A DNA stretch of 64,000 bases, taken from assembly GCA_025454875.1 (NCBI GenBank), contig JALONP010000018.1, forward strand, positions 1 to 64,000, given 5' to 3'. The first letter of the stretch is position 1. Every line of letters begins with the position of its first letter. The translations under genes were made by a program, and so were the position numbers. Below, piece after piece: positions 2,895-5,850 of this stretch. The stretch is from Bacteroidia bacterium (GTDB lineage Bacteria; Bacteroidota; Bacteroidia; UKL13-3). The notes beneath the pieces are model-generated. The model ran no database searches. It was not told where the DNA came from and worked only from the letters and a program-made list of their open reading frames with translations.

Positions 2895-4092
2895 ATGCCT
2901 GTTTTTCAACCTGCTCAAGCAATACATCACATGCTTCATGTAGTTGCGTTTCGGTTACGATGAGTGGTGGTGCAATTCGAAGTTTATGTGATGCAAACAA
3001 GAACCAATCTGTAAGTACGCCATTGGCAATACATGCATCAATAATCCGTTTGTTTTGGTCAAAGCTTTCAAATTCGAGTGCCAACATCAATCCTTTTCCT
3101 TCAACTGATTTAATGGCGCGGTGTTGTAGGCGTTCACGCAATAGCCTTTCTTTTGCAGCAACTTGTGCAATCCAATTATGTGACAGCAGTTCTTGAATTC
3201 CTGCTACGGCCGCTGCACATACAACAGGGTGTCCGCCAAAAGTGGTTATATGGCCTAAAATGGGCTGCTCTGCAAGTGTCATCATACGTTCATGTGATGA
3301 TACAAAGGCGCCAATGGGCATGCCTGCACCAAGGGCTTTTCCCAATAACAAAATATCTGGAACAATTCCACTGTGTTCAAAGGCAAACATTTTTCCAGTT
3401 CGGCCCATTCCCGTTTGAATCTCGTCAAAAATAAGCAATGCTCCATTTTGGGTGCATTGCGTGCGCAACGCTTGTAAAAAATGTTCGTCTGTTGGAATGT
3501 ACCCACTTTCGCCTCTTACTACTTCTATAACCACACAGGCCGTTTCATTATCTACCATGGATAAATCATCATGGTTGCCATTGCTCATAAAATGAACATT
3601 GGGCAACAAAGGTTCAAAGGGTTCTTTAAACATCCGTTCGCTGTTAAGGCTTAATGCGGCATGAGTACTTCCATGATAGGCCTGTTTGCACGCGATGATT
3701 TTAGAACGCCCTGTTACCCGTTTGGCAAGTTTAAGCGCCCCATCAGTGGCTTCAGCTCCTGAATTTACAAGGTATACGCAGTTAAGTGATGGGGGCAAAA
3801 GTGACGTAAGCAATGTGGCAAGCTGCACTTGTGGAGCTTGCACATACTCGCCATAAACCATCAAATGCATATAAGCATCTACCTGGTTTTTAATAGCCGC
3901 TTTCACTTTTTCATTTCCATGCCCAAGGCTGCTCACGCTAATACCAGAGATTAAATCGAGCCAACGTTCGCCTATTTCGTTATACAAATAAACACCCTCG
4001 GCTTTTGAGAACTCAAGCAATAGCGGAAACCTGGTGGTTTGTGCTTGGTGGTTTAAAAACAACTGTCGCTGGCTTAAATGCATGTCTGGCAA
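2893..4092 (-). CDS. Class III PLP-dependent aminotransferase (acetylornithine/ornithine type)
   Basis: This 399-residue protein has the full fold-type I class III pattern. It shows NSGAEATDGALKLAKRVTGR (cofactor phosphate region), QAYHGSTHAALS, the DEIQTGMGRTG motif with the PLP-pyridine Asp, and LGKALGAGMPIGAF with the Schiff-base Lys. The family moves an amino group between an omega-amino or 2-amino donor and a keto acid; the substrate cannot be read from sequence. It is distinct from the ornithine aminotransferase at 52 kb, and no arginine-biosynthesis genes lie beside it, so I do not name it argD. The start is either M1 or M4 (MHLSQRQ); M1 is kept. It shares a bidirectional terminator with the gene on its 3' side, and a long repeat-rich region lies upstream. 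Confidence 0.85.
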   Translation of the reverse strand: MPDMHLSQRQLFLNHQAQTTRFPLLLEFSKAEGVYLYNEIGERWLDLISGISVSSLGHGNEKVKAAIKNQVDAYMHLMVYGEYVQAPQVQLATLLTSLLPPSLNCVYLVNSGAEATDGALKLAKRVTGRSKIIACKQAYHGSTHAALSLNSERMFKEPFEPLLPNVHFMSNGNHDDLSMVDNETACVVIEVVRGESGYIPTDEHFLQALRTQCTQNGALLIFDEIQTGMGRTGKMFAFEHSGIVPDILLLGKALGAGMPIGAFVSSHERMMTLAEQPILGHITTFGGHPVVCAAAVAGIQELLSHNWIAQVAAKERLLRERLQHRAIKSVEGKGLMLALEFESFDQNKRIIDACIANGVLTDWFLFASHKLRIAPPLIVTETQLHEACDVLLEQVEKQA

Positions 4093-4161
4093 ATATGGTT
4101 ATTAAAATGTATATCCGCTACCTTAGCAGTAAAACGTATTCTTATCTTACCTCATCTATTC

Positions 4162-4217
4162 TTGGGGCTGGCCGCCCCAAACCCGCCTTACTTTTTCTCT
4201 GGGAAAGAAAAAGTAAG
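4162..4217. repeat. Two adjacent perfect hairpins
   Basis: TTGGGGC at 4162-4168 pairs with GCCCCAA at 4174-4180. CTTACTTTTTCT at 4187-4198 pairs perfectly with AGAAAAAGTAAG at 4206-4217 around a 7-base loop. A weaker AACCCA/TGGGTT pair follows at 4275-4300. From memory, sequences of this general kind recur between genes in Bacteroidota genomes; I cannot confirm copy number here. Confidence 0.7.
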
Positions 4218-4397
4218 CAAAAAGTTCATGCTACCGATGCTTTTGTTACAAACTACATCATTTATTTTCCCCGCAACCCAAGCCACTTCGTTCGTGGGTT
4301 AAAGGCCACCGCTAAAATAAACGCTTTGTTTGTTACACAAAACCATCTAAGGCAAAAGAAAGGGTTAGGGTTGTGTTTTTCGAGAGACAAAGTGCGG

Positions 4398-4415
4398 TTC
4401 CGATAGCTATCGGAA
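4398..4415. repeat. 18-bp perfect palindrome
   Basis: TTCCGATAGCTATCGGAA is perfectly self-complementary. A degenerate relative, with TCCCGGATAG facing TTATTGGGA, interrupts the tRNA-Pro fragment at 58551-58569, which suggests a dispersed palindromic unit. Confidence 0.75.
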
Positions 4416-4416
4416 T

Positions 4417-4499
4417 CCACCAATTTAGCGAAATCAACCCGAATTAGCCTGAGTGGCGTTGGGCATAGCGCAGAATGAGGGTTGATTTGGAATTGGTGG
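4417..4499. repeat. Long interrupted inverted repeat
   Basis: CCACCAATT (4417-4425) pairs with AATTGGTGG (4491-4499), and AAATCAACCC (4431-4440) pairs with GGGTTGATTT (4479-4488). This gives a 19-pair stem with a small internal loop and a 38-base apical region. It directly follows the palindrome at 4398-4415. It could be a structured RNA or a small non-autonomous repeat; the sequence does not decide. Confidence 0.65.
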
Positions 4500-4793
4500 T
4501 CTGCTTTTCGGTTCAATCAATGTTATATAAAAATAACCCATTTTCAAATTTTACATTGATAATAAGCGAATGAATGAAGCAGTTATTTGAGGTCTTAGTC
4601 ATTTCATTCGGTAGTACCTTTTGCAGAACCAAAAGGTAACAAATAGAACAGTTAAAGAACTTAAGGCTCCCTCTTTACCATTTCAATGTTACTGGTATTA
4701 TTGCGGATATTCATATTATTAAATAGCAAATTTTAATTGTACAGGTTTGGCTTAGTGGGCGCAGCAAGCTACCATGTAGCGCGGAGCACACGA

Positions 4794-4808
4794 CAGCGCT
4801 TTGCGCTG
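4794..4808. repeat. Short hairpin CAGCGC-TTT-GCGCTG
   Basis: A perfect 6-base-pair stem with a 3-base loop sits inside a locally GC-rich stretch (about 4754-4815). That stretch stands out from the AT-rich surroundings and resembles a repeat remnant. Confidence 0.5.
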
Positions 4809-4820
4809 GAAGCCCATCAA

Positions 4821-4854
4821 AAAAGCCGATAATCTTGGTAGGCTATCGGCTTTT
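4821..4854 (-). terminator. Rho-independent terminator of the DHS-like gene
   Basis: AAAAGCCGATA (4821-4831) pairs with TATCGGCTTTT (4844-4854), and on the minus strand the stem is followed by a U-run (4824-4819). It lies 22 bases beyond the stop codon at 4876. Confidence 0.8.
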
Positions 4855-4875
4855 GGTAGTATAAGTTTGGGCTGC

Positions 4876-5850
4876 TTACCAACCTAAAATCCAAGCAAAA
4901 ATGAGTGGTGCCACAATAGTTGCATCACTTTCAACAATGAATTTGGGCGTATGAATATCCAATTTACCCCATGTTATTTTTTCGTTAGGCACAGCGCCAG
5001 AGTAAGAACCATAAGAAGTTGTTGAGTCACTTATTTGGCAGAAATAACTCCAAAACGGAATGTTCTCCATTTCCATATCTTGGTACAACATGGGTACCAC
5101 ACAAATGGGGAAATCGCCTGCAATACCTCCACCAATTTGGAAAAAGCCAACACCTTTGCCGCTGCTGTTTTTTACGTACCAATCAGCTAACCAAGCCATG
5201 TATTCGATTCCGCTTTTCATGGTAGAAGCTTTGATGTCATTTTTAATTACATAACTGGCAAAAATATTTCCCATGGTACTGTCTTCCCACCCTGGAACTA
5301 CAATTGGGATGTTCTTTTGGGCAGCAGCGAGCATCCACGAATTTTTAGGGTCAATTTCGTAGTATTGTTCCAACTCACCACTTAGCAATATTTGATACAT
5401 GTACTCATGCGGAAAGTAACGTGTTCCAGCAGTATCTGCGTCTTTCCAAATTTTGTAAATATGTTTTTGTAACCTCCTAAATGCTTCTTCTTCAGGAATA
5501 CAAGTGTCGGTTACGCGGTTATAATGGTTTTCGAGTAAATCCCACTCATCTTGAGGCGAAAGATCGCGGTAGTTTGGTACGCGTTTATAATGGCTGTGTG
5601 CCACCAGATTCATAATATCTTCTTCTAGGTTGGCTCCTGTGCAGCTAATGATAGCAACTTTATCTTGCCTAATCATTTCGGCAAGCGATTTGCCCAACTC
5701 AGCGGTACTCATAGCACCAGCAAGCGTTACCATCATTTTGCCACCTTCTTGTAAATGGGTTTCATATCCTTTGGCCGCATCAACCAAAGCCGCTGCATTA
5801 AAGTGTTTATAATGGATTTCAATAAATTGTGAAATAGGTCCTTTGCTCAT
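4876..5850 (-). CDS. Deoxyhypusine-synthase-like protein
   Basis: This 324-residue protein belongs by eye to the deoxyhypusine synthase fold family. The C-terminal GAVPNEKITWGKL matches the eukaryotic active-site stretch around the catalytic lysine (WGK); here the lysine is about residue 296. Other family-like segments are LAGAMSTAELG, SCTGANLEEDI, IPIVVPGWEDSTMG and FFQIGGGIAGDFPI, which form the NAD-binding core. Eukaryotic enzymes transfer the butylamine of spermidine to eIF5A, which bacteria lack. Bacterial members may act on a free polyamine (homospermidine-type chemistry) or another acceptor, so the substrate is left open. It appears monocistronic, with its own terminator. A TATATTCG sequence at 5876-5883 (minus) may be its -7 box. 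Confidence 0.8.
   Translation of the reverse strand: MSKGPISQFIEIHYKHFNAAALVDAAKGYETHLQEGGKMMVTLAGAMSTAELGKSLAEMIRQDKVAIISCTGANLEEDIMNLVAHSHYKRVPNYRDLSPQDEWDLLENHYNRVTDTCIPEEEAFRRLQKHIYKIWKDADTAGTRYFPHEYMYQILLSGELEQYYEIDPKNSWMLAAAQKNIPIVVPGWEDSTMGNIFASYVIKNDIKASTMKSGIEYMAWLADWYVKNSSGKGVGFFQIGGGIAGDFPICVVPMLYQDMEMENIPFWSYFCQISDSTTSYGSYSGAVPNEKITWGKLDIHTPKFIVESDATIVAPLIFAWILGW

Follow-up and report, generated by a model that had tools for sequence, protein, structure and literature searches.

A probable orphan IS1595-type MITE with a covarying hairpin cargo in a Bacteroidia genome

We studied a window of 64,000 nucleotides, i.e., the whole stretch of DNA that was analysed, from the draft genome of a Bacteroidia bacterium (G000; 2.98 Mb in 37 contigs). 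Its palindrome-dense positions 4107-4714 are very probably a non-autonomous element (MITE) with ends of the IS1595-family type. As a MITE, this element is ordinary, while its cargo is unusual: one hairpin architecture recurs in eight families with greatly diverged sequence and nearly pure Watson-Crick pairing. The largest hairpin of the cargo, M1, is likely to be conserved at the level of DNA. As far as our searches go, the hairpin cargo is new and its carrier, an orphan IS1595-type MITE, is of a known kind.

Extent, modules and setting of the element

First, we located all palindromic features that the first-pass annotation had named for positions 4093-4875, namely two perfect hairpins, an 18-bp perfect palindrome, an interrupted stem of 19 pairs, a GC-rich short hairpin and a terminator. 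All of them are found in the sequence (Table 1). Two more structures were identified beyond these, i.e., a 9-pair hairpin close to the right end and M1, which is imperfect and the largest of the block.

Table 1. Coordinates of the element, its modules and its flanks within the window.
Feature	Position	Strand	Remark
Target duplication TTATTAAA, left	4099..4106	.	
Element (very probable MITE), 608 bp, non-coding, IS1595-type ends	4107..4714	+ (ATGTATATCC end drawn at left)	sharp ends in the alignment of copies
Left terminal inverted repeat ATGTATATCCGCTACCTTAGCAGTAA	4107..4132	+	20/26 to the element's other end
G+C-rich hairpin, 7 pairs	4162..4180	.	G024 counterparts: GGGGTTGCCACCCC and similar
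H1 hairpin, 12 pairs	4187..4217	.	loop/strand complementarity lost in G000
M1, long imperfect hairpin	4223..4356	+	model match, covariation
18-bp palindrome TTCCGATAGCTATCGGAA	4398..4415	.	module in some copies only
M2 hairpin, 9 + 10 pairs (4417-4425/4491-4499 and 4431-4440/4479-4488)	4417..4499	.	interrupted 19-pair stem; covariation, 7/24 pairs changed on both sides
Optional segment	4513..4614	.	missing in L012, L014, L015, L016, L018, L024, L025
Hairpin TACCTTTTG...CAAAAGGTA, 9 pairs	4615..4638	.	
Right terminal inverted repeat ATGAATATCCGCAATAATACCAGTAA	4689..4714	-	found by end-pattern search
Target duplication TTATTAAA, right	4716..4723	.	one A separates the octamer from the element
GC-rich short hairpin CAGCGC-TTT-GCGCTG, 6 pairs	4794..4808		
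Terminator, 11-pair hairpin	4821..4854	-	host sequence outside the element, single-copy stretch

The block had also been claimed to be unlike any other gap of the window. We scored 783-bp windows stepped through the 64 kb by the summed arm length of their perfect stems (arm of at least 7, loop of at most 12). The claim holds, since only 1 of 633 such windows, the block's own, reaches the score of 48. For 300 Markov shuffles of the block, the respective mean and maximum are 6.5 and 33. Folded as single-stranded DNA, the element yields a z-score of -6.7 (20 shuffles, none of them equally stable).

Searching the genome with positions 4050-4900 as query returned 30 matching stretches. G000 has about 20 element copies, the ends of which coincide at 4107 and 4714. 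Several copies are placed at contig ends, as is usual for repeats in a draft assembly. The query 4730-4860, in contrast, matches only itself. The proviso of the first-pass annotation that each unit might occur only once in the genome therefore applies to this latter stretch but not to the element. The coordinates given for the block extend beyond the element; 4715-4875 is non-repeated and ends in a terminator that, given its position and strand, is presumably that of the deoxyhypusine-synthase-like gene.

The copies differ by whole modules, i.e., the 18-bp palindrome and the segment of ~100 bp are either present or missing, and one copy (L110) has only ~215 bp between the same two ends. Based on the alignment of the copies, the window's M1 is without 7 bp (GCTTACC) that follow the inner stem elsewhere. 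Most copies show no ORF of at least 100 aa across the M1 hairpin; the longest ORFs of the window element (133, 84 and 74 aa) mutually overlap. At one contig end (C6) of G000, two copies are arranged head-to-tail with the right end of one ~20 bp from the next left end (L027). A repeat within the repeat is observed for five copies of the related genome G024 (L067, L068, L072, L081, L097), where the H1 region holds an insert AACTCGTTGTTGTTTAT...GATTGCTGCGCAGT.

The window copy is flanked by minus-strand genes for a deoxyhypusine-synthase-like protein (PF01916; 4876-5850) and a class-III aminotransferase (PF00202). Relative to the aminotransferase ATG at 4083, the element ends 23 bp upstream. Within 4084-4106, the insertion point is 15 bp from this start codon and beside CATATTTG, which is also found ahead of the orthologous aminotransferase gene of a genome from the same genus (G001). 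The insertion may have split this promoter. G001 shows the same two genes with synteny kept but a different gap, which is filled by a 197-aa ORF such that the comparison provides no clean empty site.

Element ends and their IS1595 partner

Next, we evaluated the ends of the element, which are imperfect inverted repeats of ~26 bp, and their flanks. In 13 of 17 hand-curated elements from four genomes, at least 7/8 positions agree between the two flanking octamers, while the other four (L011, L016, L018, L079) are without clear duplication (below 7/8). As a background, 20,000 mismatched flank pairings show on average 0.94 matching positions with a maximum of 5. Restricted to G000, 7/10 elements have a duplication (control maximum 4). 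The test was redone on these 17 hand-chosen elements because automated end pairing had produced many spurious pairs. Besides 8 bp, some copies are also compatible with a duplication of 9 or 10 bp; 8-bp target duplications are given as usual for the IS1595 family (PMC8101967).

Allowing for at most 3 mismatches, the end pattern has 13 hits in G000, 8 in G001, 8 in G024, which is from a different genus, and none in G010, and its reversed version, used as a control, has no hit in any of these four genomes. A 15-base end motif is present in 40 viral contigs, which are probably for the most part chance matches.

A putative partner for these ends is encoded by the congener G001. Its 301-aa IS protein matches the IS1595-family model NF033547 with 199.9 bits and PF12762 with 74.9 bits, and its zinc ribbon (PF12760) scores slightly under the cut-off. 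Both MITE ends agree with the right end of this IS at 23/26 positions. Reading the window on both strands, only 2 out of 127,948 26-mers agree that well; the right MITE end also agrees with the left IS end at 19/26. Seven of the eight end-pattern hits in G001 are at whole or broken IS copies, and the eighth (L098) is without a transposase match alongside. Within G012, a 46%-identical transposase is found inside an element (L154) whose ends are related and whose flanking octamers match perfectly. On a single contig of G001 (C1), we observe five IS1595-family transposase copies that are 99-100% identical to the query (L153, L166, L172, L174, L176); such near-identical copies indicate recent activity of the IS in this genome.

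G000 itself has no IS1595-family transposase match, neither with the protein query nor with NF033547, such that its MITE copies are orphans. NF033547 matches 18 times in G001, where the model search finds no M1 hairpin, and has no match in eight relatives with the M1 hairpin (G024, G083, G032, G002, G085, G086, G010, G021). None of the genomes searched was found to combine the MITE with its transposase.

The view of the first-pass annotation that the block is a composite of dispersed, MITE-like units is supported by multiple copies, inverted-repeat ends, target duplications, a congeneric IS with matching ends, and the gain and loss of modules. We suggest that an IS1595-family transposase copied the element around the genome in trans, where insertion took place at A+T-rich intergenic sites and duplicated 8 bp of the target. 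The mobilising transposase would since have been lost from detection in G000, leaving the copies as orphans. The dense palindromes would be cargo, i.e., a hairpin cassette (G+C hairpin, H1, M1, M2) related to dispersed units of other Bacteroidota families.

The hairpin cargo and the level of its conservation

To describe the spread of the cargo, we refer to a model of the M1 hairpin, which matches 10 of the 64 genomes of the family; the order-level search covers the same 64 genomes. For the class, M1 relatives are found in 15/395 genomes from 8 families, where at most 8 candidates per genome were scored and copy numbers outside the family are thus lower bounds. Between two copies from outside the family, the shared stretch amounts to ~170 to 470 bp and comprises H1 and M1 with a variable flank, and no IS1595-type ends are seen in the sequence shown around these copies. 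Two loci hold clustered M1 copies, of which one (L285) is a segmental duplication and the other (L286) an array; among the ORF starts shown, no transposase-bearing parent was recognised beside them. The array (L286:3395-5565, genome G277) comprises at least 5 intergenic M1-type units within ~2.2 kb amid triplet runs of TACTACTAC and TATTATTAT.

The exact window motif GCCCC...TTACTTTTTCT has no occurrence in the genome contig collection or in the viral contigs. Two hairpin queries against plasmid and phage collections match Persicobacter and Aureibacter plasmids only (19-25% coverage), with no match in the phage collection. Neither the element nor the hairpin has an Rfam family match, and no description of the hairpin cargo was found in the literature by title or abstract.

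The covariation that the first-pass annotation had proposed to look for is found in both M1 and M2 (Table 1). For M1, we aligned 34 sequences (from G000, G024, G010 and locus L152) without using structure information, and 18/31 pairs are changed on both sides. In total, 152 cells show such two-sided changes compared to 55.8 in shuffled controls, and sliding the partner leaves no more than 12. For loci that had not entered the model built from this alignment, 29/31 pairs are changed on both sides, based on a model-fitted alignment that includes 5 antisense rows. The bases at the M1 foot are conserved.

We also compared the G-U usage at variable pairs with that of SRP RNA from the same bacterial family. 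The SRP control (alignment A5; 25/29 hits, i.e., without L269, L282, L283 and L284) has G-U in 75/411 paired cells (18%). M1 shows G-U in only 2/615 cells of alignment A1, which leaves out 4 of the 24 G024-type copies due to loop insertions (L068, L069 and two in L078), and in 9/1182 cells of alignment A4 (43 rows, i.e., 54 minus 5 antisense rows and 6 duplicates). Mispairs in M1 are mainly CT (29), AC (27) and CC (13), such that GT (9) is no commoner than the others; the excess of A-C over G-T is a weak hint at RNA from the opposite strand. M2 (window 4415-4500, alignment A3) has G-U in 18/119 variable paired cells, mostly from two columns. This is near the RNA control and M2 could therefore still be RNA-like.

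Strong covariation of the arms together with near-absent G-U argues for conservation at the DNA level or repair by template switching, and against an RNA fold of M1. The M1 hairpin would be kept as DNA either because a protein reads the DNA hairpin or because template-switch correction keeps the arms alike, and we put most weight on DNA-level conservation via one of these two routes.

Relatives of H1 provide further information about the architecture. Their 6-nt loop reads CTTGA[T/A/C], and a respective [A/T/G]TCAAG follows a few bases past H1. A hairpin is present in the expected stretch of 52/56 copies, and 40 of these 52 show at least 6 complementary bases. The variable base is complementary in all 40 distinct units (T-A 25, A-T 11, C-G 4), although the scan did not demand complementarity at this position; since the copies are related, these are not 40 independent events. 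For G000 copies including the window's, the complement is lost, i.e., the loop reads CTGTGAA, CTGGGAA or CTAGGAA, with no more than 4 bases paired. H1 with its complement is also found at 23 places in 6 records of Persicobacter and Aureibacter plasmids, with a long hairpin next in the four units that were inspected, and in one viral contig. Five pattern scans of viral contigs gave 1, 1, 0, 0 and 0 contigs, where the matched and the mismatched loop/hexamer pair both gave 0, such that these scans carry no information about pairing. On the Aureibacter tunicatorum plasmid pAT6 (L297, ~2501-2670), a CTTGAT/ATCAAG hairpin unit separates cas5d from cas7d within a type I-D CRISPR operon.

Based on this architecture, we tentatively propose that the cargo belongs to an unnamed family of Bacteroidota DNA hairpins with a pseudoknot-like single-stranded shape, which may spread by itself as well as within IS1595-type MITEs and may be read by a DNA-acting protein. 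As part of the same tentative proposal, its layout would be H1, with a stem of 10-12 bp and the loop CTTGA[T/A/C], followed by a linker rich in A, the loop-complementary hexamer and a long hairpin.

Alternatively, the hairpins could be functionless, with replication template switching between the arms keeping them complementary (quasipalindrome correction). We regard this as possible, since template switching is known for hairpins (as described in PMC8794818) and accounts for paired changes that are of Watson-Crick type only; it does not readily explain the constant order of H1, linker and loop complement across several families or the conserved bases at the M1 foot. Another alternative is a structured regulatory RNA encoded by the element, with the hairpins conserved as RNA; a structured RNA had already been an option of the first-pass annotation. 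The strong covariation, the pseudoknot topology of loop and strand in relatives, the A-rich linker and the G-U pairs in M2 are in its favour, but M1 nearly lacks the G-U pairs of a real hairpin RNA from the same family, Rfam provides no match and the loop complement is lost in G000, such that we consider it unlikely and do not retain it for M1. It is similarly improbable that the hairpins are bidirectional transcription terminators, which would render insertions milder: pairing required on both strands would indeed bar G-U as well, and 43 of the 50 examined copies are flanked by two ORFs, namely 15 by convergent, 4 by divergent and 24 by co-directional genes, but avoidance of promoters predicts an equal orientation bias, the M1 arms are not followed by a T-run, the loop complement is superfluous for termination, and the window copy is upstream of a gene and between co-directional genes. 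As a whole, the earlier interpretation of the block is thus partly supported.

Relation to known systems

M1 can be related to a wider question, as it provides a testable case of telling conservation of a hairpin at the RNA level from that at the DNA level by G-U usage. It also cautions against taking covariation by itself as proof of an RNA. If a protein reads the hairpins, they represent a widespread DNA element of the phylum that is so far nameless. If template switching maintains them, they are a large natural example of this process.

In Pistol-type ribozymes, a hairpin loop pairs with a later strand that is followed by a second hairpin. This topology resembles the order of H1, complement and M1; the first stem is longer here, there is no Rfam match and G-U is almost absent from M1.

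With the IS1595 family (ISXO2-like DDE transposase, NF033547/PF12762) and its MITEs, the element shares 8-bp duplications as well as inverted repeats that are almost the same as in a same-genus IS. Its interior is different: instead of a deleted IS, it consists of a hairpin cassette that also occurs elsewhere in the class. Like MITEs in general, it is non-coding and intergenic, while its 608 bp are long compared to the 70-300 bp stated for bacterial MITEs (PMC3733652). The same source describes the REP/RAYT and TIR/TIRYT systems, which also feature dispersed extragenic palindromes and whose hairpins, as here, may be read as single-stranded DNA. The first-pass annotation had considered units of the REP kind, too, but the shared unit is ~170 bp or more compared to the 20-40 bp given there for REPs, and no Y1 transposase is seen beside the copies with inspected flanks. 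Finally, BrickBuilt of Porphyromonas gingivalis is from the same phylum and likewise a MITE with repeated material inside (PMC4596501). Going by its description there, it is set apart by a minisatellite interior, whereas the cargo of the element studied here consists of covarying hairpins.
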